Of a DNA stretch of 64,000 nucleotides, positions 8,152 to 64,000 are shown piece by piece (the first letter of the stretch is position 1; every line of letters begins with the position of its first letter). Source of the DNA: Loktanella salsilacus (GTDB lineage: Bacteria; Pseudomonadota; Alphaproteobacteria; Rhodobacterales; Rhodobacteraceae); contig NZ_FOTF01000003.1 of NCBI RefSeq assembly GCF_900114485.1, positions 124,001 to 188,000 on the forward strand, read 5' to 3'. The translations under genes and the position numbers were made by a program. The notes beneath the pieces were generated by a model, which made no database searches, was not told the origin of the DNA, and worked only from the letters and a program-made list of their open reading frames with translations.

Positions 8152-8997
8152 TTAAACCGCTTCCAGGGCGCGCAAGGCGCGGGTGGCTTCTTCGAAGTGC
8201 TGCGGGTGCGTGTCGATGGCTTCACGCAAAAGGCCCTTGCCCGTGGTCACGTCGTTTTGCTTAATCGCGGTCAGCGCCATGGTGTAAAGCAGCTGTGCGC
8301 GTTCAATTTGGGTCATTGGCACGACCGGCAGATCGTATTTTCGCTGCGCGCCGCGTGCCAAGATCAAGTTGTTCTTGGCGGTGAACATTGTGCTGTCTTG
8401 GCGCAGGGCGTCGGTGAACAGACGCTCTGCCCCTGGATAATCGCCGCGTGTCAGCTTGGAGTAACCCCAGTTATTCATGGTGTTAGCGGGCGTCGACGTG
8501 AGGCCGACGGCGGTTTGGTAAAAGCTATCAGCCTTGGACCACTGTTGTTTGCTGTCGGCGATCATCGCCTCTAGCCGGTAGCGATCAAAGGTTTCGTGGG
8601 TCGGCGGGATGGCATTCAGCGTAGCTGCTGCATCGTCCCAGCTATTTGCGCGAATTTGGGCTTCGGCCATTTCGACCCGGTCATCAAGGTTGGAGTCGGG
8701 GTGCGCAATGACAAGCTTCCAAGTCGTCACGCCCTCGTCTGCGCGGCCTGCACGGACCAATGACTTGGCAAGTCCGCGCTGCAAATCGATCCGGTCCGGA
8801 TTGCCGGCCAAGGCACCGTTGAAATATTTTACGGCCTCTTCGGGATCGCCAACCGTAAGCATGACGTCGTTCAGGCTCGCGCTTTCGATCGAGTTGAGGT
8901 CCTGCATAGCGCGCTGCACTTCGGCATCGCCGTTACGTGTGCCGCAAGCGGACAAGGCCAGCGTTCCGGCCAGACATAGAATAACGGTATGGCGCAT
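8152..8997 (-). CDS. TPR lipoprotein, TadD-like (second copy)
   Basis: A 281-residue secreted protein. The N-terminus MRHTVILCLAGTLALSACG is a type II signal peptide with lipobox LSAC, so the mature protein should be lipid-anchored, probably in the outer membrane. The rest is helical with tetratricopeptide repeats, clearest around WGYSKLTRGDYPGAERLFTDAL. TadD-like TPR lipoproteins are thought to act as pilotins helping the Tad secretin assemble. It follows a shorter TPR lipoprotein gene by 27 nt and precedes tadV by 3 nt. The two TPR genes differ in length and sequence, so they are not a recent duplication. Its exact role is not defined. Confidence 0.85.
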   Translation of the reverse strand: MRHTVILCLAGTLALSACGTRNGDAEVQRAMQDLNSIESASLNDVMLTVGDPEEAVKYFNGALAGNPDRIDLQRGLAKSLVRAGRADEGVTTWKLVIAHPDSNLDDRVEMAEAQIRANSWDDAAATLNAIPPTHETFDRYRLEAMIADSKQQWSKADSFYQTAVGLTSTPANTMNNWGYSKLTRGDYPGAERLFTDALRQDSTMFTAKNNLILARGAQRKYDLPVVPMTQIERAQLLYTMALTAIKQNDVTTGKGLLREAIDTHPQHFEEATRALRALEAV

Positions 8998-9024
8998 TTT
9001 TATGCGTCCTTTCCTGCTGCTACC

Positions 9025-9582
9025 TCAAAGCGGTTCGATGGAGTCGTCATCGGCGCGCCGGACCAGTTCAAAGTTCTGGTTCTCTTGCGCAGGATCGTAA
9101 ATAACGGCGTCGCGTTTGGATAGTGCCAAGCGCAGGTTCTCTCGGATCTCGTCAGAATTCCCGTTGTCCGTGGCAAATGCGCGACGAAAAATCTCGGCTG
9201 CTTCGGCAAATTCGCCTTTTTCCATCAATAATACGCCCAAGTTGTTCCAAGCGGGGGCGAAATCAGGTGCCTCTTCAGCGGCGCGGCGCAGCAGGCCTTC
9301 GGCTTGTCCTAAGCGGCCAAGGCGCAGGTTGGCGGACCCAAGCGCGGACAATGTGTCCACGTTAAAGCCCTGCACCACGGCGGCGCGGGAATATGCATCA
9401 AGCGCGAGTTCGTATTCCCCGGCGGCCATCAGGCGGTGACCGACGACAAGGTTATCGACCTGCGCCTTGCCCGCGACGCCGGGTGCAAAAACGCCGTCCC
9501 CAGACGCAAGCGGGCCGCCTGATGAACAGGCGGCCAGTGCGAGACATATTGCGGCAGCCAAGGCGCTGCGAGGTCGAATCAT
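9025..9582 (-). CDS. tadD: TPR lipoprotein TadD
   Basis: A 185-residue lipoprotein with signal peptide and lipobox LAAC (Cys19). Two to three clear tetratricopeptide repeats follow, for example the stretch with AWNNLGVLLMEKGEFAEA at about residues 110-127. It sits directly behind tadC (4 nt), the usual tadD position in Tad clusters. TadD proteins are thought to assist localisation or stability of the outer-membrane secretin. The last residues are acidic (ADDDSIEPL). Confidence 0.88.
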   Translation of the reverse strand: MIRPRSALAAAICLALAACSSGGPLASGDGVFAPGVAGKAQVDNLVVGHRLMAAGEYELALDAYSRAAVVQGFNVDTLSALGSANLRLGRLGQAEGLLRRAAEEAPDFAPAWNNLGVLLMEKGEFAEAAEIFRRAFATDNGNSDEIRENLRLALSKRDAVIYDPAQENQNFELVRRADDDSIEPL

Positions 9583-9586
9583 CGGT

Positions 9587-10570
9587 TCAGTTTCCGCCCC
9601 CCATGGTTTGCGTGATACCGTAGATGGAGGGTCCGATCAGGATGAGCAAAAGCGGCGGCACGGTCAACATCATCGTGGCAAGTGTCATCTTAGTCGGTAG
9701 TTTATTTGCAGCTTCTTCGGCACGCATGACACGTTTGTCACGCATTTCTGCGGCATAGACCCGCAGCGCATCGGCGATCGAGGTGCCGAATTGTTGGCTT
9801 TGGATCAGCACGGTTGTGAAGGACGAGATGTCTTGCACACCGCAGCGTTCCGCCATGTCGCGCAGCACAGCCTCTTTTCCTTTGCCGGCCTTCATTTCTT
9901 GGCTGACCAGTTCGAATTCAGAAGCCAGATCGGGGAAGCCTGATTTCAACTCTCTTGCGACGCGCAGGATGGACTGGTCCATGGATTGACCAGCTTCGAC
10001 GCAGACCAGCATCATGTCGAGGCTATCTGGGAAGCCGTATTCGATGGCCTCTTTGCGCGCGGCAACGCGGCGCGTGACCCAGTATTTCGGTAGCATGTAG
10101 CCAATAAAGCCCGGAATCAGCAGCGTCATCATCATGGATTGCTGCGACACTTCGCCCGTCTGCGTTTTCAGCAGGGCATAGAGGCCGCCAAAGATAAGAC
10201 CGAAAATGCCCAAGGCGAACTGACTGAAGTGAAAGGTACGGACGGCGTTTTTGGATTTATAGCCGGCCTGCAACAGCGTCAGTCGTGCTGCAGAATAGGC
10301 GACGGCGTCCTGCGGTTCCAGAAAGTTGGCGTATTTTTCCAACTTGTCTTTGCTTGTGGGCGCACGCAGGCGTTCGCCGTTGCCGCTTGCCTTGGCGGTG
10401 TGGGCGCGGTTGAGGGCTTTGAGTTTGTCGAGTGGATCGACCTGCTTTTTCAGCAGGACAGGCAACGTGACAAGGATCATGATGAGGCCAATAAAGCCCA
10501 CCAGAATGACGCCGCCAAATGGCCCCAGGATGTCGGTTAGCATCGTGTTGATATCGTTGATAATAGACAT
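9587..10570 (-). CDS. tadC: Tad pilus inner-membrane platform protein TadC
   Basis: A 327-residue integral membrane protein of the type II secretion F family. There is an N-terminal hydrophobic helix (about 15-40), a cytoplasmic segment, two more membrane helices, the conserved T2SSF domain (from about residue 180, with FPDSLDMMLVCVEAGQSMDQSI) and a final hydrophobic helix. TadC pairs with TadB to form the platform on which the TadA/CpaF ATPase acts. It lies 9 nt after tadB and 4 nt before tadD in one operon. Confidence 0.95.
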   Translation of the reverse strand: MSIINDINTMLTDILGPFGGVILVGFIGLIMILVTLPVLLKKQVDPLDKLKALNRAHTAKASGNGERLRAPTSKDKLEKYANFLEPQDAVAYSAARLTLLQAGYKSKNAVRTFHFSQFALGIFGLIFGGLYALLKTQTGEVSQQSMMMTLLIPGFIGYMLPKYWVTRRVAARKEAIEYGFPDSLDMMLVCVEAGQSMDQSILRVARELKSGFPDLASEFELVSQEMKAGKGKEAVLRDMAERCGVQDISSFTTVLIQSQQFGTSIADALRVYAAEMRDKRVMRAEEAANKLPTKMTLATMMLTVPPLLLILIGPSIYGITQTMGGGN

Positions 10571-10579
10571 AATCTGACC

Positions 10580-11545
10580 TTACACCTTGATGTTCACGAG
10601 GGCGCGCATGACGATCAGGTTCAGAACCAGAAAGCCGGTTACGACCAGACAGGCAGGGATGAAAATCGGCTTATCCATCACCTCGTCAAAATAGCCGGGC
10701 TGGATCAGGTTGATCACGATCAACGCTAGGATCGGGAAGGCCGAGAGCAATTTGCCGGACCATTTTGCCTCTGACGTGATGGCTTTGACGCGGCGGAATA
10801 GGCGGAAGCGGGACCGGATCACCTTGGCCAGACCGTCAAGAATTTCGGCCAAGTTACCACCAGAGGTTTGCTGGATCGTGACGGCGACCGCCAAAAAGCG
10901 CAAATCCTGCATATCAAGACGTTCTGCCATGGCCTTCAGCGTTTCACCCATATCGCGACCATAGGCGGCCTCGTCCGAGATGACGCCCATTTCGGTGCCC
11001 AATGGGTCAGGCAATTCCCTGGCAACGATCTGAACAGCCGAAGAAAATGGGTGGCCGACGCGCAGGGAACGCACCATCAGTTCGACGGCTTCTGGCAGTT
11101 GTTCTTCGAACAAGGCCATGCGCTTGTTCGCCTTGCCGCTGATCCACATGAACACACCGCCCACGCCCATACCAACCGCGACGACGGCGCGGGTCGGGGG
11201 GGCGACTTCGGTCATCATCGTCAGGCCAAAGAAGGCCATGACGCTGACGCCTGCCATCAGCAGGATGATTTGCGGCGGGGTAAAGGCGATGTTAGCGCGC
11301 TGCGCCTTGGCAGCCAAAATCGAATAAAGCGGGATGCTTTGCGATTTCATGTGCTGGGTCATCTCCTTGCGGAGCTGTTCCAGAACCTGTTCGCGATTGC
11401 CGCCTTTTTCAAGCAGCTGCAGGCGGCGGTTCACCTTGCCATTCATGGTGATCGATTTGCCAAAAAGCACCAAATAGATGCCCTGCACCACGAAGATCAC
11501 GGACGCAAAGATCGCAATATAGATAAGCGGTTCGGCGGAAATCAT
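10580..11545 (-). CDS. tadB: Tad pilus inner-membrane platform protein TadB
   Basis: A 321-residue T2SSF-family membrane protein, paralogous to the neighbouring TadC. An N-terminal helix (about 5-28) is followed by a basic cytoplasmic segment, two hydrophobic helices (about 95-140), the T2SSF domain with LPEAVELMVRSLRVGHPF (about 150-167) and C-terminal helices. TadB and TadC together form the assembly platform. The gene lies 6 nt behind cpaF and 9 nt before tadC. Confidence 0.95.
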   Translation of the reverse strand: MISAEPLIYIAIFASVIFVVQGIYLVLFGKSITMNGKVNRRLQLLEKGGNREQVLEQLRKEMTQHMKSQSIPLYSILAAKAQRANIAFTPPQIILLMAGVSVMAFFGLTMMTEVAPPTRAVVAVGMGVGGVFMWISGKANKRMALFEEQLPEAVELMVRSLRVGHPFSSAVQIVARELPDPLGTEMGVISDEAAYGRDMGETLKAMAERLDMQDLRFLAVAVTIQQTSGGNLAEILDGLAKVIRSRFRLFRRVKAITSEAKWSGKLLSAFPILALIVINLIQPGYFDEVMDKPIFIPACLVVTGFLVLNLIVMRALVNIKV

Positions 11546-11551
11546 GGTGCG

Positions 11552-13000
11552 TTACTCCGCAACAAGGGGTTCGAAAATCTGCGGCGGCAAATCGTAGCCC
11601 CACAGTTTGAAACGGTCAGAGAAGTGGCTGCGCACGCCGGTCGCCGTGAAGTGACCGATGATCTTATTCTCGGGCGTCAGGCCAACACGCTGGAATTTAA
11701 AGATTTCCTGCATAGAGATCACGTCGCCTTCCATCCCGGTAATTTCGGTGATGGACGTCATGCGGCGCGAGCCGTCTTGCAGACGCGAGGCCTGCACGAT
11801 CAGGTTCACAGCGGATGAGATCTGGCTACGCATCGCTTTGATCGGCATTTCAATACCGGCCATAGCGATCATGTTTTCAAGACGCGACACGCCGTCACGC
11901 GCAGAGTTGGCGTGGATCGTGGTCATCGATCCGTCGTGGCCCGTGTTCATGGCCTGCAACATGTCGATAACTTCTTCGCCGCGCGTTTCCCCGACGATGA
12001 TGCGGTCTGGCCGCATCCGCAGGGCGTTTTTCAGACAGTCGCGCTGGCTGACAGCGCCTTTGCCTTCGACGTTGGGCGGACGGCTTTCCATGCGACCCAC
12101 GTGGATCTGTTGTAGCTGAAGTTCGGCCGTGTCTTCGATCGTCAGAATGCGTTCGTCGTTGTCGATGAAAGACGACAGCGCGTTCAACGTCGTCGTCTTA
12201 CCCGAACCCGTACCGCCAGAAACGATAATGTTCAGACGGGTTGCGACGGCGGCCTGCAGATAGGCGGCCATTTCTTCGGAAAACGCCCCGAATCGCACTA
12301 GGTCATCGATGCCCAGCTTGTCTTTTTTGAACTTACGAATCGACACCAGCGAGCCGTCGACCGCAATCGGACCGACCATCGCGTTGAAACGCGAGCCGTC
12401 TGCAAGACGGGCGTCAACGTAGGGGTTACTTTCGTCGACGCGGCGACCCACGGCAGATACGATCTTGTCGATAATCCGCAGCAGGTGCTTTTCGTCTTTA
12501 AAGGTGATGTCGGTCAGTTCGAGCTTGCCGTCGCGTTCGACAAAGATCTGCTGTGGGCCGTTCACCAGAATATCGTTGACCGTGTCATCCTTGAGCAGGG
12601 TTTCAAGCGGACCCAAGCCCTTCACCTCGAAGAACAGATCCTGCGACAGGGTAACGCGTTCATCCCGGTTCAGGACGATGCCCATTTCATCAAGCGTTTC
12701 GTTCGTGATTGCGTTGATTTCGTTGCGCAAATCATTCTCGCTCGCATTTTCAAGCGCGGCGAGGTTCAGGTTGTCGAGCAGGGCTTTGTGCAGCTCTAGC
12801 TTAATTTCACCCAGTCGTTCCTTGCGCTTTTTATCGCGGTCACCCGGCGCGACTTCTGCCGCGCGGGTGGGCATGGATTTCATCAAGGATTTACGCGGAG
12901 CATCCTCGGCCACCAGCGCCGTGACGGCGGACATGGTTGGCTTGGGATTTCCGGGTGCGGGCGTCGCCGCGCCGCCTGGCTTTTTGTACTTCGAGAACAT
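11552..13000 (-). CDS. cpaF: Tad pilus assembly ATPase CpaF/TadA
   Basis: Cytoplasmic secretion ATPase that drives Flp pilus extension (and in some species retraction). The 482 residues include a variable 50-residue N-terminus and an N-terminal domain. The motor follows: Walker [10 protein letters not shown] (262-270), Asp box [10 protein letters not shown] (285-294), Walker B region [12 protein letters not shown] (332-343) and His box MTTIHANS (359-366). All catalytic boxes are intact. It lies between tadZ (14 nt) and tadB (6 nt). Confidence 0.97.
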
Positions 13001-13014
13001 GACGTGCCTTTCCC

Positions 13015-14262
13015 TTAACCGCGTGCTTCGGCGTGATCGGCCCGATTGACCGCGTGGACAGAGGCCGCGAGTTTCGCGATCTCTTTGCGCATGGTATTTT
13101 TAGGGGCATTCACAGCAAGCGGCGTGCCGTGATCACCGGTTTGCGCGACCTGCTTGCCGCCATCGGGCAACTGAACTTCGACTGAGATTCCAAGGCTTTC
13201 GCCCAGCCGTTTGACCCGCGCCTTGCCGGAAAGATCGGTGAAGCCGGGTGCCCGGTTCAGCACAAAGCGCAGCTTTTCGAACGGCAGGTTTTCAGACTGC
13301 AGGGCGCGTTTCAGACGCAGAGTGTTCTGCGCTGACCGCATGTCCAGTTCTAACGTCGCGAAATAGATGTGCGCGGCTTCTAGAACGGTCTGCGACCATT
13401 CGACCATGACAGAGGGCATATCAATGATGATGTAATCAAAGTTTGTCCGCGCCATTTCCAAGATTCGCGAGACATCAGCGCTGGTGATCAGATCCATGGG
13501 GATCATGTCCGTCGGCGCGGTCAGCACGTGCAGTTTTTGGTCATAGGACAAAAGCGCCTGCATAAATGAGGTGCTATCCATCGCTTCGGTGTCTGACATC
13601 AATTCAAGCACTGCCTCTCGGCGGGGCAGGTCGAGGTAAGTCGAGACCGAGCCGCACTGCAGGTCGAGGTCGAGCAAGCAGACGCGGGGTGGGTTGTCCT
13701 TGTCGAGCAGCGACAATTCCCAAGCCAGATTGACTGCGAAAGTCGTGGCCCCGGTGCCGCCAGCCATGCCGTGCACAGCGATCAGCACACCATCATGGGT
13801 GCCAGTCGCCTTCAGCTTGTTTTGCAATTCCGGGGCGATGGCGATTTCCGCGGCAGGGGTTAGGACCCGTTCGATTGCGTTGGCCAGCTCGTTTTCCGGC
13901 AGCGGATAGGGCACAAATTCGTCGCCGCCTTCGCGCAGCAGCTTGTGTAGCGCGGCGGGGCTGACGTCTTCGGTGATAAGGATGACTTTGATTTCTTGGG
14001 TCTTGGCCGCACTGATGATGGCAGCGATTCGGTCAAGGTTGACTTCATCCTCTGCATCCATCGCGACGGCCAGAAATTGCAATTCAGCCGCGTCGGGTTG
14101 GCGCAAAAATGCAAGGGCGTCGTCGAAGCTCAAATCACCCCAGCTTTCGCCAAGGGCTGCTTCCATGTCTTCGATCAACAGATCAAAGATCTGTACATCA
14201 CGACTAACGGTGCAGGCCACCAGAGCGGGGCTATCGGATTTATGAATTGCATTGCTGCTCAT
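13015..14262 (-). CDS. tadZ: Pilus localisation protein TadZ/CpaE (MinD-like ATPase with altered P-loop)
   Basis: A 415-residue two-domain protein that places the Tad machine in the cell. The N-terminal part (about 1-135) is a receiver-like domain without clear phosphorylation signature. The C-terminal part is MinD/ParA-like, with Walker A' DLDLQ (198-202) and the IIIDMPS segment. The P-loop is GMAGGTGATT (165-174): the signature lysine and the catalytic-loop lysine of MinD (KGGVGKTT) are both replaced by alanine, so ATP hydrolysis may be lost. An ATG at 14277 in the same frame is possible, but the ATG at 14262 has a GAGGA Shine-Dalgarno eight bases upstream and is preferred. It heads the cpaF-tadB-tadC series. 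Confidence 0.9.
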   Translation of the reverse strand: MSSNAIHKSDSPALVACTVSRDVQIFDLLIEDMEAALGESWGDLSFDDALAFLRQPDAAELQFLAVAMDAEDEVNLDRIAAIISAAKTQEIKVILITEDVSPAALHKLLREGGDEFVPYPLPENELANAIERVLTPAAEIAIAPELQNKLKATGTHDGVLIAVHGMAGGTGATTFAVNLAWELSLLDKDNPPRVCLLDLDLQCGSVSTYLDLPRREAVLELMSDTEAMDSTSFMQALLSYDQKLHVLTAPTDMIPMDLITSADVSRILEMARTNFDYIIIDMPSVMVEWSQTVLEAAHIYFATLELDMRSAQNTLRLKRALQSENLPFEKLRFVLNRAPGFTDLSGKARVKRLGESLGISVEVQLPDGGKQVAQTGDHGTPLAVNAPKNTMRKEIAKLAASVHAVNRADHAEARG

Positions 14263-57254: not shown

Positions 57255-58142
57255 CTAGGATACGGGCGGCGGGATACGTGCGGCATAGGCCTGCGCGATC
57301 TGCCCTGCCGTCGTGATCCAGATGTCATCCCGGCGCTGGGCAATATGGTTTAGCGCGCGTCGCAGCTGGCGCAGGCGAAAGGGTTGGCCGACGATATAAG
57401 GGTGCAGCGCGATGCCAAAGACCAGCGGTTGCGCGACGCTTTGATCCAGCAGTTCGTCAAAGTTGTCGATGATCATATCGGCAAACTCTGCCGCGCCGGT
57501 TTTGCGCCCGACAATCGCAGGGATGTCGTTGATTTCTTGACCGTAAGGCAGGGACAGTAGCGGGCCGGACCTTGTTCGCATCCAGACTGGCTGGTCGTCC
57601 ATGCACCAGTTCATGGTGTAGCTATATCCCGCCTCTACCAGCAGATCTGGCGTCACCTCGGTCTCGGCAATCCATGGGCTAAGCCACCCCTTGGGTTGTT
57701 GCCCGGCGTGCGCCGTGATCACATCAGAGCAATGGGCAATCATCGCCGCCTCTTCGGCCTCGCTCATGCCGCTTTGGCTTTCGGAATTGGTGCGGCCATG
57801 GCCTGCGACCTCGTCCCCGCGGACGGCGTGGGCCGCCATCAGGGCGGGGGCGTAATCGTACATTTCGCTATTGGGCAGCACGGTGGCGGGCAGGTTCAGA
57901 TCGTCCAGCAGATCAATCAGCCGCCACGCACCGACCCGGTTGCCGTAGTCGCGCCAAGCATAGTTCAAAACATCAGGCTCGGGTTCGGCATTACCGATCT
58001 GCGCGCCTTTTCCTGCCCCAAAGGCAAAGTGTTCATGGTTCACACCTAGATAGACCGCCAGCCGCTTGTTGCCGGGCCAGTCAAAATCGGGGCGCTGGGT
58101 GATCGGGGTGTAATCATAGCGTCCATGCGTTGGCAGGCTCAT
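57255..58142 (-). CDS. Polysaccharide deacetylase family protein, PuuE-like
   Basis: A 295-residue carbohydrate-esterase-4 fold protein. The segments YLGVNHEHFAFG (31-42) and EVAGHGRTNSE (111-121) are the altered metal-site motifs of the PuuE-like subgroup, which includes a cofactor-free allantoinase, rather than true polysaccharide deacetylases. It is the last gene of the importer/racemase operon and overlaps the SnoaL-like gene by four bases. Ring-opening of a hydantoin-type amide is a plausible activity; not proven. Confidence 0.85.
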   Translation of the reverse strand: MSLPTHGRYDYTPITQRPDFDWPGNKRLAVYLGVNHEHFAFGAGKGAQIGNAEPEPDVLNYAWRDYGNRVGAWRLIDLLDDLNLPATVLPNSEMYDYAPALMAAHAVRGDEVAGHGRTNSESQSGMSEAEEAAMIAHCSDVITAHAGQQPKGWLSPWIAETEVTPDLLVEAGYSYTMNWCMDDQPVWMRTRSGPLLSLPYGQEINDIPAIVGRKTGAAEFADMIIDNFDELLDQSVAQPLVFGIALHPYIVGQPFRLRQLRRALNHIAQRRDDIWITTAGQIAQAYAARIPPPVS

Positions 58143-58555
58143 AGCGGCGCCTCTGCCAGGCCGGCACGGTCCAGCAGGATTTCCGCGCTGTCGTTCCAGA
58201 TTTGCGTTTCAACGATTTTGCCGCCGCGCACCGTAAAGATGTCGATATAGCGGTTGCCGTCAAATGCGGTGCCGTCCGGCCAAGCGCCGTACAGATGCCC
58301 TGTATTATAGACGTGAACGTCGCCGGTTTCGTGATCCTGAACCGCATCGGTGCGGATGAACCGCTTTTTCACCCATGCATAGCGTTTGGCGTTGAACGCA
58401 GCCGTCTGCGCTGGCGCGGTAAAGGCGCGGCCGCCAGTAAAGGCGATCTTAAGATCTGCCGAAACATACTTGGCGGCACCCTCTGGGTCAGGGACCATCG
58501 ACCGTTCTAAAAACGCCTCGACCACTTGTTTGGCCTGCGTCGCGGGGTCTGTCAT
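58139..58555 (-). CDS. SnoaL-like / NTF2-family protein
   Basis: A 138-residue alpha+beta-barrel protein of the nuclear transport factor 2 superfamily (SnoaL or ketosteroid isomerase-like), seen from the VVEAFLERSMVPDPEGAAKYV start and the GRYIDIFTVRGGKIVE-type ending strand pair. Such proteins catalyse isomerisation or hydrolysis of small molecules or just bind ligands. It is translationally coupled on both sides (ATGA overlaps) with the racemase and the deacetylase-fold gene, so it probably acts in the same pathway. Confidence 0.82.
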   Translation of the reverse strand: MTDPATQAKQVVEAFLERSMVPDPEGAAKYVSADLKIAFTGGRAFTAPAQTAAFNAKRYAWVKKRFIRTDAVQDHETGDVHVYNTGHLYGAWPDGTAFDGNRYIDIFTVRGGKIVETQIWNDSAEILLDRAGLAEAPL

Positions 58556-59178
58556 TGCATCGTCCTTTCAAGCGCGGCGCGCAGGCCGTCGATCAACGGC
58601 ACAGGGAAATCAGGCGCGTTGGCCGCCACGTCCACCATGCCTGCGCAGCCCAGAACAATAGCGCTGATGTCGTCTTCGGCCACCGCCTGCCGCGCCTCTG
58701 CCAATACGCGGGGGATGGCGGTGGCGGGATCGGTATCAAGGTCCAGTACCGGTACACCGCTGGCGCGCACGCGCGCGCATAGCGGGGTCAGGCCAAGGGC
58801 TGCGATGTTCCCTTCCAGCACCGGGATCGAGACGGCGAGCGTCGTTACCACGCTGAAACGGCCCAACTGCGCGGCCTTGTCATAGGCGGCCTGCCCAATC
58901 CCGATCACAGGGCAGGGGACCAGCGCACGCGCCTCGGTCAAGCCTGTGTCGTCAAAGCAGCCGATGATGATGACCGATGCACCTGCGTCATAGGCCTTTT
59001 TCACCAGCTTCAGCAGCGGCGGGATGCAGGCGGCACCGTCCTGCGGCCCTTGGATCGCGGGCGGGCCGTCATGGGATGTCCAGCCTTCGATCTGGGCATC
59101 GGGGCACATCTGGCGGGCGGTGGTCAGCAGCGTTTCGGTCATCGCTGCCGTGCTGTTCGGGTTGATGATGACGATCAC
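58552..59178 (-). CDS. Aspartate/glutamate racemase family protein, hydantoin/allantoin racemase-like
   Basis: A 208-residue racemase of the Asp/Glu/hydantoin family. The two catalytic cysteines are Cys74 in IIGCFDDTGL and Cys178 in VLGCAGM, the signature pair of hydantoin and allantoin racemases. The start is GTG at 59178, overlapping the permease stop (GTGA). Its operon partners, an ABC importer and a PuuE-like hydrolase, fit a pathway for a chiral cyclic ureide. Substrate is an inference. Confidence 0.88.
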   Translation of the reverse strand: MIVIINPNSTAAMTETLLTTARQMCPDAQIEGWTSHDGPPAIQGPQDGAACIPPLLKLVKKAYDAGASVIIIGCFDDTGLTEARALVPCPVIGIGQAAYDKAAQLGRFSVVTTLAVSIPVLEGNIAALGLTPLCARVRASGVPVLDLDTDPATAIPRVLAEARQAVAEDDISAIVLGCAGMVDVAANAPDFPVPLIDGLRAALERTMQ

Positions 59179-60014
59179 AACACACCTTTACCCGCGTCCG
59201 ATCCCGCCCGCGCCCGGCGGCGGTTGCCGATCAAGGCGATGGTCAGGAATACGCCGATAATGGCCAATGAAAACAACGTCGTCAGTGTCCCCAGCGCATA
59301 AAGGACCGGAGAGGTGACATTCGTTGTCATCCCGTAAATCTCGAGCGGGAGCGTGTTGTAACTGCCCGCGGTCAGCAGCGTGCGGGCGAATTCGTCGTAG
59401 GACAGGGTGAAGCCGAATAGCGCGACGCCGATCAGCGCGGGCGCAATAATCGGCAGCACGACATGGCGCAGGGTCTGCCACGGGCTGGCCCCCAGATCAC
59501 GCGCCGCTTCCTCATAGCTTTTGTCGAAACGGTTGAAGACGGCGAACATGATCAGCAGGCCGAACGGCAGCGTCCACGTCAACTGCGCCCCAAAACCAGA
59601 GGTCGCCCAGTGTACCGTCAGGCCGGTTTGGCTGAACAGCAAGCCGACGCCCAAAGAGATCAGGATGGAAGGGATCACCAGCGCGGTGATGATCAGGTAA
59701 AACAGGATGCCAGAGCCCTTGAACCGGGTGCGGAACGCCAGCCCGCCCATGACCGACACGGTGACCGTCGTGACCATGACCATCAGGCCCAGCACAATGC
59801 TGCGGCTAAAGCTGCCCCAGATGTCGCCGACCGCCTGCTGCTGGAACAGGTCGCGGAACCAATAGGTCGACACGCCGCGCATCGGAAAGGTCAGGCCGCC
59901 GCCCTCGCCCTGAAACGACAGGATGCCGATGGTGATGGTCGGGCCGTAAAGGAACAGCATGAACAGCGCAAAGAACGCAGTCAGAACGTAAAATGACTTG
60001 GGGCGGGGTTCCAT
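59175..60014 (-). CDS. ABC transporter permease (PotC-like)
   Basis: A 279-residue inner-membrane permease of the spermidine/putrescine-type importer family, with six helices and the ATPase-contact loop SYEEAARDLGASPWQTLRHV. One base overlap with the previous permease (TAATG) and four-base overlap with the racemase. Partner of the PotB-like permease next to it. Confidence 0.92.
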   Translation of the reverse strand: MEPRPKSFYVLTAFFALFMLFLYGPTITIGILSFQGEGGGLTFPMRGVSTYWFRDLFQQQAVGDIWGSFSRSIVLGLMVMVTTVTVSVMGGLAFRTRFKGSGILFYLIITALVIPSILISLGVGLLFSQTGLTVHWATSGFGAQLTWTLPFGLLIMFAVFNRFDKSYEEAARDLGASPWQTLRHVVLPIIAPALIGVALFGFTLSYDEFARTLLTAGSYNTLPLEIYGMTTNVTSPVLYALGTLTTLFSLAIIGVFLTIALIGNRRRARAGSDAGKGVL

Positions 60015-60868
60015 TACAGCTCTTTTCTTATGTCAACAAAGCGCAGCAGGATCGCGATGGTGATCAGCACGGTGGCCAGCAGGACAATCGCCGTGGCCGA
60101 GGCGCTGGGATATTGCAGCAAGGCGATATCATTAGAAATCAGGCGTCCGACGTTGGCGGACTGTGAGCCGCTCATAAAGCGGACCGTGATGAAGTCGCCC
60201 ATGACAAGCGTCACGACAAAGATCGTGCCGATCATGATGCCGGACTTGGTCAGCGGCAGGATCACATTCCACAGGATCTGGCGGCCGCTCGCGCCTGCGT
60301 CCCGCGCCGCCTCTATCAGGGATTTATCGATGCGCATCATGGTGTTGAAGATCGGGACCACCATGAACAACGTATAAAGATGCACGAAGGCAAGGATCAC
60401 GGCAAAGTCGCTAAACAGGAGCCAGTCCAGCGGCTCGTCCACCACGCCCCAACTGATGAGTGCGGAATTGGCGATGCCGTTGCGGCCCAGAAACGGGATC
60501 CAACTGATCATGCGGATGATGTTGCTGGTCCAAAATGGGATCGTGCACAGCAAAAATAGGGCGATCTGCCATGTCTGCGTGCGGATATGAAAGGCAAGAT
60601 AATAGGCAATCGTGAACCCGATGCTAAAGGTCAGCGCCCACGTGATAATCGCGTATTTAAAGGTGTTCAGGAACACGCTGTATGTGACGGGTGATCCGAA
60701 CAGAAAATCGTAATTCTCCCATGAAAAGGCGGGGATGATGCTGAACTCTGTCGCCGTCCAAAAGCTGACGACACCGATCAGGATGATCGGCAGCACAAGG
60801 AACACGGCCAGCACGATCGCCAGCGGCGACACCATCAGCCAGCCGGTCAGGTTAGGTCTTGCTTGCAT
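60014..60868 (-). CDS. ABC transporter permease (PotB-like)
   Basis: A 284-residue permease with six helices and the loop SLIEAARDAGASGRQILWNVILPL. The ATG at 60868 is chosen over a GTG one codon upstream because of better spacing from an AAGG site. It is 57 nt after the binding-protein stop. Confidence 0.92.
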   Translation of the reverse strand: MQARPNLTGWLMVSPLAIVLAVFLVLPIILIGVVSFWTATEFSIIPAFSWENYDFLFGSPVTYSVFLNTFKYAIITWALTFSIGFTIAYYLAFHIRTQTWQIALFLLCTIPFWTSNIIRMISWIPFLGRNGIANSALISWGVVDEPLDWLLFSDFAVILAFVHLYTLFMVVPIFNTMMRIDKSLIEAARDAGASGRQILWNVILPLTKSGIMIGTIFVVTLVMGDFITVRFMSGSQSANVGRLISNDIALLQYPSASATAIVLLATVLITIAILLRFVDIRKEL

Positions 60869-60925
60869 CACAGCGCCTTTTGATTGGGGGTGCGGCGCGC
60901 CGATACAGGCGCACCGCGGGTTTCA

Positions 60926-62203
60926 TCACGCGGCGATGAATTCATTCCACTTGCGGACCATGTACTGGTTTTCGTCCATGACGGAGTTCCAGCAAGCCAC
61001 GGACCCCATTCGGTCATCAAAAGAGCCGCCGTCGCGCACATCGCCAGCCTGCGCCAGCGCGTCGCCGGTGGGGGATGTGATGACATCGGTGGCAGCCTTG
61101 CCTTCGAACCAATAGCCCCACTCGTTTTCGGACATGAAGTTCTTGGATGTTTCAGGCACAGCGGAATAATAGCCCTGCCGCATCAAATAACCGCCGACCC
61201 AGCCGTCCAGATACCAGTTGATGTATTCATAGGCCGCGTCACGCTCTAGCCCGGTCAGGGATTTGGACAGGCCGATACCGCCGCCCCAAGACCGGTAACC
61301 TTCTTCCAGCGGCTGATAGACACATTCGATCCCGCGCGATTTGACGGCGGTGATGGCAGGCGACCACATGGACTGGATGACGACTTCGCCAGATGCCATC
61401 AGGTTCACGGATTCATCGAAGGATTTCCAGAACGACCGGAACTGGCCGTTTTTCTTGGCTTCGGTAAAGATGCCAAGAGTCATGTCGATCTCTTCGCGGG
61501 TCATGTTGCCTTTGTCGGGGTATTTATATTCGCCCATCGATTCCACGACCATGGCCATGTCCATGATCCCAATAGAGGAAATATCGAGGATCGAAGCTTT
61601 GCCTTTGAATTCGGGGTTCAGCAATTCGGACCAATTGGTGATGGGACGCCCGATCAGATCGGGGCGGATGCCCAGCGTGTCGGCGTTATAGATCGTCGGG
61701 ATCAGGGTCATCCAACCGGACTCTTCTTGCACGAAATCGGTGCCGTCCGGGCCAGAGGTAAAGCCGACCGTATGTGGCGCGGTGCCCTGTGCAATCGTGC
61801 TGCCCGGGGTCAGCAGGCCATTGCGGAAAATGCCGACGATCTTGTCGTAATTCTTGATCTTGGATGTATCCATCGCCTGCAGGTTTCCGGCGGCCCAGAC
61901 CTTTTTACAGATGAAATACTCGATATCTGCGATATCAAAACTGTTCGGCTGTGTGGCGGCCCGCTGGGTCACGCTGTCCGTATCAAGCGCTGTCATCTCT
62001 AGCGTAAAGCCAAGGTCCTCTTTCACCTTGTCGGCGACGTCGTTCAGGTTTGACACGCCGGTGCCGAACTGGCGCAGGGTGATGTCCTTGATGTTCTGCG
62101 CCCAGATCATTGGTGCGCCCAGCGTGGTGCCAGCGGCAAAGGCGGCGGTGGCGGCCCCGCCTTTCAGAACGGAGCGGCGGGAAAGTTTGGTGGCTTTGGT
62201 CAT
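60926..62203 (-). CDS. ABC transporter substrate-binding protein (PotD-like, Tat-type signal)
   Basis: A 425-residue binding protein with a twin-arginine-like signal (LSRRSVLKGGAATAAFAAG, about 8-26). The later segments with SIGIMDMAMVVESMGEYK and LTGLERDAAYEYINWYLDGWVGGY are typical of the spermidine/putrescine family. The ligand cannot be set by family alone; operon context suggests a ureide or hydantoin-like compound. It lies 34 nt after the ATPase gene. Confidence 0.92.
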   Translation of the reverse strand: MTKATKLSRRSVLKGGAATAAFAAGTTLGAPMIWAQNIKDITLRQFGTGVSNLNDVADKVKEDLGFTLEMTALDTDSVTQRAATQPNSFDIADIEYFICKKVWAAGNLQAMDTSKIKNYDKIVGIFRNGLLTPGSTIAQGTAPHTVGFTSGPDGTDFVQEESGWMTLIPTIYNADTLGIRPDLIGRPITNWSELLNPEFKGKASILDISSIGIMDMAMVVESMGEYKYPDKGNMTREEIDMTLGIFTEAKKNGQFRSFWKSFDESVNLMASGEVVIQSMWSPAITAVKSRGIECVYQPLEEGYRSWGGGIGLSKSLTGLERDAAYEYINWYLDGWVGGYLMRQGYYSAVPETSKNFMSENEWGYWFEGKAATDVITSPTGDALAQAGDVRDGGSFDDRMGSVACWNSVMDENQYMVRKWNEFIAA

Positions 62204-62237
62204 GGCATCTCTCTCTGTTTTGTGGGGACGCGGCGGT

Positions 62238-63224
62238 TCACGCCGTCAATTGGTGAAGGTTTTTGGCATCCCAGGTCAGACCGATGCGGTCGCCGGGGTG
62301 GTGCGGGGCGTCGAAATAGGCAGCATCTGGGACAAGGGCCGTGACCTCTTGATCGCCTGCGATGCGGGACATGACACTGACGTAGGTGCCTTGATATTCG
62401 ATGGCGGTGACGTGGCCTTCCATCTGGCCGCTGCCTGCGGGGGTGACGCCGACGGCGTCGGACCGGATGGCGAAATGGCCTTGGGGCAGGGCGATGACGT
62501 TATGTCCGCCCATGAATTGCGCGACGAACCGGGTCTTGGGCGCGTTAAAGACTTCGCGCGCTGGGCCAGCCTGTTCGATGACAGCATCGTTCATCACGAC
62601 AATCTCGTCCGCCAGCGCAAGCGCCTCGTCCTGCCCGTGGGTGACGTGGATGAAACTGATCCCCAGCTCTTTTTGCAGGTTGCGCAATTCGGTCCGCATC
62701 CTGACCCGCAAGAAAGGATCAAGCGCTGACAGCGGCTCGTCCAGCAACAAGACCTGAGGGCGGGTGATCAGCGCCCGCGCCAGTGCGACGCGCTGCTGTT
62801 GCCCGCCGGACAGTTGCGCAGGCAGGCGGTCTGCAAGGGCAGTCAGATCGACCAGTTCCAACATCTCGGCCGCTTTGGCACGGCGTTCCTTGGCATCAAC
62901 GCCCTTCATTTTTAGGCTAAAGGCGACGTTATCCAGCACGCTAAGGTGCGGAAATAGCGCATAACTTTGGAACATCATCGCTGTGCCGCGCTTGGCAGGC
63001 GGTAGATTTGAAATGTCGCGGTGCGCCAGCAGGATCGACCCTTCGGTCACGCTTTCATGCCCGGCAATCATCCGCAGCGTCGATGACTTCCCGCAGCCTG
63101 ATGGCCCAAGCAAACAGGTATAGCTGGCAGGGCGAAACCGGTGGCTGACCGCATTCACCGCAAGCGCTGTGCCATAGCGTTTGGTCACGCTGACCAGCTC
63201 TAAATCTTGGATAATACCGCTCAT
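62238..63224 (-). CDS. ABC transporter ATP-binding protein (PotA-like)
   Basis: A 328-residue ATPase. Walker A is GPSGCGKSS (40-48), signature [15 protein letters not shown], Walker [13 protein letters not shown], and a C-terminal TOBE domain follows. It is the first gene of the operon; the ATG at 63224 begins [18 protein letters not shown]. The long frame upstream runs through the promoter and regulator operator region and is not coding. Confidence 0.93.
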
Positions 63225-63366: not shown

Positions 63367-63378
63367 ATTGTATACAAT
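63367..63378. promoter_or_regulatory. Palindromic operator, FCD-type GntR box
   Basis: The sequence ATTGTATACAAT is a perfect 12-bp palindrome in the 236-bp gap between the ABC operon and the GntR gene. It matches the TNGTATACNA core known for FCD-subfamily GntR regulators. It includes a TACAAT hexamer on both strands, so it may overlap the -10 elements of both divergent promoters. It is 82 bp from the regulator ATG and 142 bp from the ABC ATG. Confidence 0.8.
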
Positions 63379-63460: not shown

Positions 63461-64000
63461 ATGATACAACCAGTTTCCGCTTCACCCAGCGACCGCGTCA
63501 TGACGGCGGCGAGCCTTGCGCAGGATCTGTCTGCGGCGATTCATGCCCACCGGATCGCGCCAGGTACCAAGCTGCGAGAGGACGAGCTAAGCGACATTTA
63601 CAGTGTGTCCCGCACCATCGTACGCAGTGCTTTGCAGGCGCTTGCGCATCAAAAGCTAGTTGATATTCAGCGTAACCGCGGTGCCAGTGTTGCTAGCCCT
63701 ACGCCGCGCGATGCGCATGACGTGTTCGAGGCGCGGATCATGATAGAACCGCAGATGGCGCAGGCCGCGGCGCAAAAGGCGATGCCGGACGATATCGCGA
63801 TTCTGCGTCAGCATATCGCCGATGAACATGCCGCCGTGCTGGCGGGTGATCGGGGGCAAGCGCTTGCGCTGTCTGGGCAATTTCACGTCGAAATCGCGCG
63901 TATGGCTGATCAATCGATCATCGCAGAATTCGTGCGGTCCTTGGTTGAACGCTCTAGCCTGATTATTGCGCTGTATTGGCGCAAGCCAAGCACGTTGTGC
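63461..64000 (+). CDS. GntR family transcriptional regulator, FCD domain (3' truncated by window)
   Basis: 180 codons are visible. The N-terminal winged helix-turn-helix covers about residues 15-80 (SLAQDLSAAIHAHRI, TKLREDELSDIYSVSRTIVRSAL), and the all-helical FCD ligand-binding domain begins at about 90 with VFEARIMIEPQMAQ. The metal/ligand residues of FCD visible here are Arg96 (EAR) and the acidic HIADEHAA and GQFHVEI segments. It is divergent from the ABC-racemase operon and, with the palindrome between them, is the probable local regulator. The C-terminal end is outside the window. Confidence 0.92.
   Translation, partial: MIQPVSASPSDRVMTAASLAQDLSAAIHAHRIAPGTKLREDELSDIYSVSRTIVRSALQALAHQKLVDIQRNRGASVASPTPRDAHDVFEARIMIEPQMAQAAAQKAMPDDIAILRQHIADEHAAVLAGDRGQALALSGQFHVEIARMADQSIIAEFVRSLVERSSLIIALYWRKPSTLC

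Follow-up and report, generated by a model that had tools for sequence, protein, structure and literature searches.

What compound is served by an operon that joins a PotABCD-like importer to a racemase, a SnoaL-like protein and a PuuE-like hydrolase? The seven genes lie at 57255-63224 of a 64,000-nucleotide stretch of Loktanella salsilacus DNA (the window), all intact and all on the minus strand. The original prediction, made from the letters alone, read them as a candidate operon by which a cyclic ureide, hydantoin-like or allantoin-like, is taken up and degraded. The span that it gave was exact, and the four-base and one-base overlaps that it described were found at the junctions (three overlaps of 4 bases and one of 1 base, with gaps of 34 and 54 bases). 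Profile matches in Pfam and NCBIfam bore out the importer, racemase, SnoaL and PuuE-like families, with a marginal match for SnoaL (Table 1). The parts resemble known ones and the combination is unfamiliar; no paper on this gene set was found in the open-access PMC literature. A divergent GntR/FCD regulator and a putative operator, absent from the original prediction, were also observed upstream of the operon.

Table 1. Features of the operon and its control region, in window positions.
Feature	Position	Strand	Evidence
PotA-like ABC ATPase with TOBE domain	62238..63224	-	PF00005 117.2 bits; PF08402
PotD-like periplasmic substrate-binding protein (SBP_bac_8)	60926..62203	-	PF13416 58.2 bits
PotB-like permease	60014..60871	-	PF00528
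PotC-like permease	59175..60014	-	PF00528
Hydantoin/allantoin-type racemase	58552..59178	-	PF01177 196.8 bits (cut-off 31); Cys74, Cys178
SnoaL/NTF2-fold protein	58139..58555	-	PF12680 27.5 bits (cut-off 27)
PuuE-like hydrolase, NodB fold	57255..58142	-	PF01522 32.3 bits; TIGR03212 118.1 bits (cut-off 424.6)
Palindrome TTGTATACAA, putative GntR operator, divergent control region	63368..63377	.	conservation
Divergent GntR/FCD regulator, gene start	63461..64000 (ends at window-equivalent 64162)	+	PF00392 and PF07729

The racemase belonged to the PF01177 family and held both cysteines of the hydantoin/allantoin racemases, Cys74 in GCFDDTG and Cys178 in GCAGM, so the CFDDTG/GCAGM pair named in the original prediction was present. 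Its best PDB matches were racemases of this type (3qvj, 5lfd, and 3qvk). With the allantoin racemases of Klebsiella pneumoniae (3qvj, called KpAllR in PMC12661438) and P. fluorescens (5lfd) it shared the family and both cysteines, with full-length matches of about 100 bits, but it was joined to a PotABCD-like importer instead of lying inside a purine operon. Both cysteines were kept in all nine alpha-type relatives of at least 40% identity. The second was gone in all nine beta-type racemases, and racemisation is therefore not a constant step.

The importer was like the spermidine/putrescine importer PotABCD in subunit composition and families, but its PotA-, PotB-, and PotC-like subunits fell under the equivalog cut-offs. 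The PotA-like ATPase scored 304.3 bits against 355.6 (TIGR01187) and 301 against 482 for the PotA subfamily models, and the permeases matched PotB (141.4 bits, cut-off 348) and PotC (113.1 bits, cut-off 326) best among NCBIfam families, while the binding protein matched no NCBIfam family at E <= 0.001. Judged by these scores, the importer is not a PotABCD equivalog. The binding protein carried an N-terminal RR motif with a sub-threshold TAT-signal match (PF10518, 20.4 bits, cut-off 22.7), and its orthologs, 56-89% identical, accompanied the same permeases. Its structure model was too poor for a fold search (pLDDT 57.3) and gave no ligand class.

Within the window, the palindrome TTGTATACAA occurred exactly only once (0.01 expected), in the divergent control region; genome-wide it was present in two places. 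Relatives of the GntR regulator, 52-65% identical, adjoined 47 Pot-racemase operons, and 45 of the 47 related control regions carried the palindrome with no more than one mismatch (27 of them exactly). In the neighbouring HydA cluster this site was not found, and that unit carried a different palindrome.

We further compared the operon across genomes. Forty-eight regions were drawn from the racemase match list regardless of SnoaL or urate genes, and 11-19 kb was read in each. PotA-D-B-C and a two-cysteine racemase were conserved in 47 of them; the exception (G350) lacked Pot genes and had an ABC set of the branched-chain type. Within the sequence read, no SnoaL or PuuE-like gene was found in any of the 48, and neither were urate genes. 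HyuA/HyuB-like genes lay inside one Pot-racemase region (L244). Of 80 SnoaL loci, for their part, 68 also held a PuuE-like gene, in 62 of them within 200 bp, and this cassette accompanied several transporter types. In eight of the nine family genomes whose SnoaL ortholog reached at least 61%, the PuuE-like gene adjoined SnoaL. It also occurred without SnoaL, with a SnoaL match on the record in 3 of the best 23 plasmid PuuE-like records (at least 48% identity). By gene neighbourhood, the PotADBC-racemase genes and the SnoaL/PuuE-like pair are separate units that are joined here, and the original reading of the seven genes as one pathway did not hold. The outcome it had named as refuting, homologs never found together, did not occur either: SnoaL and PuuE-like genes are usually paired, and both alpha- and beta-proteobacteria have further examples of the complete set.

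Loci without a PuuE-like gene gave an indication of what the cassette does. In L059, L071, and L082 a dihydropyrimidinase, 67-68% identical to the HydA of the window genome, stood beside SnoaL and was followed by PotA, with PotDBC and the racemase also present in L059 and L071. HyuB-HyuA adjoined SnoaL in L026. PuuE-like was absent from 12 SnoaL loci, and in 5 to 9 of these SnoaL had no recognisable ring-opening neighbour; of the partnerless loci, L013, L041, L049, L062, and L075 were uncut by contig ends, and L022, L055, and L061 were cut. Among 21 short loci of distant SnoaL relatives, 16 had HyuB next to SnoaL and 2 had a HydA-like gene there, and the order SnoaL-HyuB-HyuA-RutB-like hydrolase was seen in all ten longer HyuB-type regions (8 of the 16 and 2 others). 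Since dihydropyrimidinase or HyuAB can stand beside SnoaL where PuuE-like is missing, ring opening of a cyclic ureide or imide is very probably the function of the cassette.

The PuuE-like hydrolase was well below the TIGR03212 allantoinase cut-off (Table 1), and its closest PDB entries were 1z7a and 3cl6 (PuuE) at 85-90 bits. It shared with PuuE a NodB fold that has lost the metal motif HxxxH, here replaced by HGxxN, and the conserved YG-R-G-WR, HG, PY...ND, and GxPxR elements. The window enzyme differs in reading HGRTNSE and GWLSPW, whereas the genome's own PuuE reads HGLKWIE and GFYQGR. His115, Gly116, and Asn119 were invariant among seven aligned proteins; in contrast, the second deacetylase of L006 carried HGYMH. 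The enzyme is predicted to be a metal-free hydrolase of cyclic ureides or imides. Allantoin as its substrate was lowered by the 118-bit score together with the canonical PuuE-UraD-AllA genes on another contig (C67). NodB-fold opening of a small cyclic imide ring, as in P. putida YZ-26 CIH (AAY98498) and Aspergillus HxnM, is described in PMC9304392. According to the same paper, these imidases act on imides that are no ureides. HP0310 is described as related to cyclic imidases and as metal-binding in PMC3084791.

The SnoaL protein was examined by its AlphaFold2 model (pLDDT 92.5). The best Foldseek matches were 9mup and 9mua, "4OT-SnoaL" of P. atlanticus (TM-score 0.81-0.83 by query; 61.7 bits by sequence), in agreement with an NTF2 fold. 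This nearest structure differs in being fused to a 4-oxalocrotonate tautomerase domain, and since the name "Tautomerase" of 9mua is that of the fusion, the SnoaL part is not thereby shown to be a tautomerase. A fusion of the 4OT-SnoaL kind adjoined HyuB-HyuA-isochorismatase in L141. In the SnoaL family, 15 columns were invariant among 39 aligned sequences. The dimethylmaleate degradation of E. barkeri and the residue pattern of arylmalonate decarboxylase belong to the general background. The nicotine-pathway polyketide cyclase was discarded as a precedent, being a pfam04199 protein according to PMC6214936. We infer that the SnoaL protein is an isomerase-type partner of ring-opening hydrolases; it may instead be a decarboxylase, as originally suggested.

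The surroundings of the operon and the rest of the host genome were also considered. L005 continues beyond the window end and carries there a GntR gene, an ABC importer of the amino-acid type, a PLP enzyme (TIGR01976), and a dihydropyrimidinase/D-hydantoinase (window-equivalent 68553-69974; TIGR02033 527.7 bits, cut-off 393.25). The statement that no classic hydantoinase, carbamoylase or ureidoglycolate gene is nearby thus stood inside the window, but a D-hydantoinase follows about 4.6 kb past its end; no carbamoylase or ureidoglycolate gene was seen by eye in L005 up to 19001, past the window end. The TIGR01976, HydA, and HisJMP unit adjoined SnoaL or PotABCD loci in L005, L007, L018, and L057. 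We left it outside the operon because of its different palindrome and because related units occurred in genomes without a SnoaL match (G226, G091, and G125). A canonical PuuE-UraD fusion (TIGR03212, 508.5 bits) and AllA were encoded on C67, as were a urate oxidase and a ureidoglycine aminohydrolase named by reading translations. An OHCU decarboxylase, a second D-hydantoinase, and a D-carbamoylase homolog (C43, 371.7 bits) also lay on contigs other than that of the window. A separate TetR, HyuC-like, HydA, and NMT1-type ABC set on C55 (names from translations, except for a TIGR02033 match) lowered a dihydropyrimidine route for the operon.

On balance, we favor the reading that the operon, under GntR control, imports a C5-substituted hydantoin-type cyclic ureide, racemises it, and opens its ring without a metal. 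The GntR/FCD repressor would sit on the conserved site TTGTATACAA and be released by substrate or product. The ureide would be imported by the PotD-like protein and PotABC, and the two-cysteine racemase would equilibrate its C5 enantiomers through proton transfer. The SnoaL protein might then perform a cofactor-free isomerisation of the ring compound, perhaps keto-enol, before opening; this is the weakest step. The fold of the PuuE-like enzyme, its loss of the metal motif, and its replacement by dihydropyrimidinase or HyuAB suggest that it hydrolyses the imide C-N bond without metal to an acyclic ureido acid. That acid could be finished by enzymes encoded elsewhere, such as the D-carbamoylase homolog on C43, AllA on C67, and the D-hydantoinase next door. 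The wider-spread Pot-racemase unit may also feed the host allantoin pathway, and the joined cassette would add a ureide outside the scope of canonical PuuE.

A further proposal, tentative and somewhat doubtful, concerns the SnoaL family itself: a new activity, that of a cofactor-free hydantoin or cyclic-imide isomerase. Such an isomerase would make the ring openable and hence be recruited beside unrelated ring-openers (PuuE-like, dihydropyrimidinase/dihydroorotase-type, and HyuAB), the window operon then having a route, not known to us from elsewhere, for a C5-heteroatom hydantoin other than allantoin, e.g. 5-hydroxyhydantoin. Ring opening of 5-hydroxyhydantoin would yield ureidoglycolate. This product is the substrate of AllA-like genes, which were found beside several beta-proteobacterial versions.

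It is unlikely that the operon serves plain allantoin uptake, with racemic allantoin entering through PotABCD, the racemase converting R to S, host PuuE-UraD-AllA finishing the pathway, and the PuuE-like enzyme acting as a second allantoinase. The Pot-racemase operon adjoined full urate oxidase/PuuE/AllA clusters in G066 (L137 and L250) and in G496 (L209), the latter picked since its coordinates suggested a urate neighbourhood; in G340 the immediate neighbours of a 46% racemase were PuuE, AllA, and a ureidoglycine-aminohydrolase-like gene, and a Pot-racemase unit without the cassette needs a downstream pathway encoded elsewhere. Canonical PuuE was present in 383 of 390 genomes of the order, which seemed to favor this route, but being near-universal its co-occurrence with the racemase is uninformative, and urate genes adjoined none of the 48 unselected regions. 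Moreover, the PuuE-like enzyme is far from PuuE in score and active-site motifs, the two enzymes coexist in G066 and in the window genome, and the swaps to dihydropyrimidinase and HyuAB suggest a broader substrate.

Known hydantoinase process operons consist of racemase, D-hydantoinase, and D-carbamoylase. This trio was found in single runs in L006, L027, and L135, with D-carbamoylase (406.8 bits to 8i99 in L006) and D-hydantoinase directly after PuuE-like. A classical route, from racemised 5-alkyl or 5-aryl hydantoins over N-carbamoyl-D-amino acids to D-amino acids, could also draw on the D-hydantoinase next door and the homolog on C43. We regard it as improbable in the window, where the operon lacks D-hydantoinase and D-carbamoylase but includes an importer of its own, SnoaL, and PuuE-like. 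The adjacent HydA unit has a different palindrome, and related units occur in genomes without a SnoaL match; moreover, a single substrate would make one of two ring-openers superfluous. Equally improbable is cyclic imide catabolism, with the PuuE-like enzyme as an imidase, comparable to P. putida CIH and fungal HxnM, and with the downstream half-amidase role falling to an amidase in other versions. NodB-fold imidases are published (PMC9304392), a PF01425 amidase (family f16) accompanied 10 of 80 SnoaL loci and clustered reference loci, and cytosine-deaminase-like amidohydrolases accompanied others (L059 and L140), but the C5-type racemase here and the D-carbamoylase and AllA-like genes of relatives suggest ureides. 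A polyamine importer with an amino-acid racemase among unrelated genes is very improbable: the transporter parts match Pot and Phn families best, and HP0310 homologs are reported beside polyamine importers in PMC3084791, but every subunit with a Pot match is under its cut-off, and a hydantoin-type racemase is what goes with this transporter, in 47 of the 48 unselected regions.

Together, racemase kinship, hydrolase swaps, and the runs in L006, L027, and L135 make a role in taking up and degrading a hydantoin- or allantoin-type cyclic ureide the best-supported class, as originally predicted. Cyclic ureides and imides, which arise from purine and pyrimidine breakdown and as damage products, can be nitrogen sources for bacteria. 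The annotations "polysaccharide deacetylase" and "NTF2-like" can hide enzymes for them. The comparisons point to two units: importer and racemase genes that share a conserved operator across many genomes of the order, and a mobile pair, SnoaL and PuuE-like, that forms a ring-opening cassette. Both enable cheap and concrete substrate screens, by which the annotation of these genes would improve.

The seven genes of the operon were intact. Four of their junctions overlapped by 4, 4, 4 and 1 bases and the other two were gaps of 34 and 54 bases; domain-model searches upheld the assignments of the original prediction. The transporter consisted of an ABC ATPase, a binding protein and two permeases, and the racemase belonged to the Asp/Glu/hydantoin racemase family (196.8 bits). 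The SnoaL protein matched SnoaL_2 (27.5 bits versus a cut-off of 27), and the top NCBIfam model for the NodB-fold protein was PuuE (118 bits versus a cut-off of 424.6). The proposed substrate class, a cyclic ureide of the hydantoin or allantoin type, was the best reading. We consider the mechanism proposed for the whole operon slightly favored, and place greater confidence in the ring-opening class alone. The statement that no hydantoinase lay nearby was correct inside the window, but not past its end, where a second, previously unnoted cluster comprised GntR, a HisJ/M/P-type importer, a TIGR01976 PLP enzyme and a D-hydantoinase. Related TIGR01976-HisP-HisM units occurred in L157-L160, with HydA in view in some.

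Coordinates of features in the window, the window genome (G000) and other loci (L)
Feature	Region	Coordinates	Remarks
Operon of seven genes	window	57255-63224	minus strand
Putative operator, palindrome TTGTATACAA	window	63368-63377	control region of divergent GntR/FCD gene; absent from original prediction
Divergent GntR/FCD gene	window	from 63461	absent from original prediction
GntR/HisJ-HisM-HisP/TIGR01976 PLP enzyme/D-hydantoinase unit	L005, running past window end	8167-13975 (window-equivalent 64166-69974)	long palindrome ATTGGTCAGACCGGTCTGACCGGTCAGACCAAT upstream
D-hydantoinase	past window end	window-equivalent 68553-69974	
Region with D-carbamoylase homolog	L199 (G000, contig C43)	64000-82000	59% identical to Sulfitobacter one
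GNAT-type acetyltransferase (by eye)	L137 (G066)	~9185-10000	between racemase and SnoaL; similar-sized gap in L032, L043
PuuE-like gene, 5-hydroxyisourate hydrolase, amidohydrolase	L009, Sphingomonas plasmid	9451-12867	another context for PuuE-like family; SnoaL gene absent from this stretch
Region with distant SnoaL relative fused to 4-OT tautomerase domain	L141	5874-15942	

Comparison of gene neighborhoods showed that SnoaL and PuuE-like were mostly together, but that this cassette and the Pot-racemase genes were two separable modules. A SnoaL profile search of the genome collection gave 185 relatives, and the 80 best of these were taken as loci. Among these 80, a PuuE-like gene lay within 200 bp of SnoaL in 62 and somewhere in the locus in 68, while a PotD ortholog was present in 17 and the racemase in 16. 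The importers beside the cassette varied: PotABCD, a TetR plus NMT1/THI5-type ABC set, which accompanied it together with an amidohydrolase in many Rhodobacterales, or a branched-chain-type ABC set, which was often accompanied by a GGT-like gene and a PF01425 amidase. Distribution was patchy. SnoaL orthologs of at least 61% identity were found in 9 of 295 Rhodobacteraceae genomes (window genome counted), a further 46 had a distant relative only, and neither was found in the sole same-genus genome sampled.

The second module read GntR, then PotA-PotD-PotB-PotC-racemase. Racemase matches at E <= 1e-30 were present in 141 of 390 Rhodobacterales genomes, and 51 regions were fetched: 48 off the match list regardless of SnoaL or urate genes, G496 and G340 for their close racemase and PuuE coordinates, and G066, in which SnoaL had been found beforehand. 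PotADBC was present in 47 of the 48 unselected regions, the exception (G350) having a branched-chain-type ABC set with a racemase that was 49% identical in one search and 46% in another. Within the 11-19 kb read, none of the 48 contained SnoaL, PuuE-like or urate genes, and one (L244) had HyuA/HyuB-like genes. A GntR gene accompanied 46 of the 47 PotADBC regions, and G496 had one as well. Across the resulting 47 control regions (46 unselected plus G496), the putative operator was exact in 27 and had no more than one mismatch in 45, and two control palindromes had no exact match. It was exact in five of the seven window-type regions (window, L006, L013, L025, L027, L134, L135), read TTGTACACAA in L027, and was altered in L134. 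The window genome had only two exact sites; the second lay at a GntR gene whose neighbors were a malonyl-CoA-decarboxylase-like gene and a TRAP transporter (names read from translations). Since this is another GntR gene, the consensus may be common to several regulators of the family.

The strongest argument on function came from the hydrolases beside SnoaL. Twelve of the best 80 loci lacked the PuuE-like gene, three of them cut by a contig end. It was replaced by a dihydropyrimidinase, 67-68% identical to the window-genome HydA, in L059, L071 and L082, and by HyuB-HyuA in L026; no ring-opening hydrolase was recognized beside SnoaL in the uncut L013, L041, L049, L062 and L075. Of 21 short loci with distant SnoaL relatives, 16 had HyuB, two a HydA-like gene and three neither. 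Twelve longer regions around distant relatives gave ten SnoaL-HyuB-HyuA-RutB-like hydrolase sets, the RutB-like assignment being a tblastn match at 27-31% only (for the L124 piece, no NCBIfam model matched at E <= 1e-20), and two SnoaL-HydA-like sets. Because three unrelated hydrolase families adjoin one SnoaL family, the cassette would open cyclic amide bonds and SnoaL would act either on the ring compound itself or on the first product formed from it.

Other neighbors bore on the substrate class. A D-carbamoylase and a D-hydantoinase directly followed the PuuE-like gene in Sulfitobacter SK012 (L006), a Rhodobacteraceae MAG (L027) and G184 (L135); the L006 carbamoylase matched N-carbamoyl-D-amino-acid hydrolases at 407 bits, and the L135 match was split in two pieces. 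Beside the C43 homolog lay an amidase-like gene and, by eye, a dipeptide-type ABC importer; a further PF01177 match, scoring 86.7 bits, was about 2 kb away. AllA-like genes accompanied the beta-proteobacterial sets L007, L051, L057 and L063 and the short locus L082, the L063 gene passing one ureidoglycolate-lyase cut-off (208.6 versus 160 bits). In G496 the Pot-racemase operon lay next to a complete urate-to-ureidoglycolate cluster, and the window-type operon of G066 adjoined urate oxidase, HIU-hydrolase-like, PuuE-UraD and AllA genes. The link to urate is suggestive only, since G496 was picked for it and none of the 48 unselected regions showed it. In the window genome, canonical urate/allantoin genes were on contig C67, and C55 carried what looked like a reductive pyrimidine set. 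The ureide handled by the operon is therefore most likely a different one, or one in addition.

Both cysteines were kept in all nine alpha-type racemases of at least 40% identity (L006, L013, L022, L025, L027, L032, L043, L059, L071). The nine beta-proteobacterial, beta-type racemases (L007, L051, L054, L056, L063, L073, L077, L078, L083) had the first only, with GGAG replacing GCAG, and a 31% relative in L038 had neither. Since the second cysteine is missing, another proton transfer may stand in place of racemization in the beta sets. The residue pattern of arylmalonate decarboxylase is the mirror image of this first-Cys/second-Gly arrangement.

Distant SnoaL relatives in L141 and L124-L133 occurred with HyuB-HyuA and an isochorismatase-type hydrolase, and those in L138 and L139 occurred with a dihydroorotase-like/amidohydrolase gene and an isochorismatase-type hydrolase. 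Aconitase or LeuCD genes were also present in L138, L139 and L141, and PEP-mutase-family genes in L138 and L141. By analogy with dimethylmaleate metabolism, these loci would appear to degrade a substituted maleimide by hydrolysis.

Among 39 SnoaL sequences, six of them distant, 15 alignment columns were invariant. The predicted structure was confident (pLDDT 92.5) and closest to 4OT-SnoaL structures, followed by limonene epoxide hydrolases and polyketide cyclases; the reaction is therefore not given by the fold alone. The gene set combines known kinds of component in a new way, and the SnoaL partner is the part of the operon that could be new chemistry.
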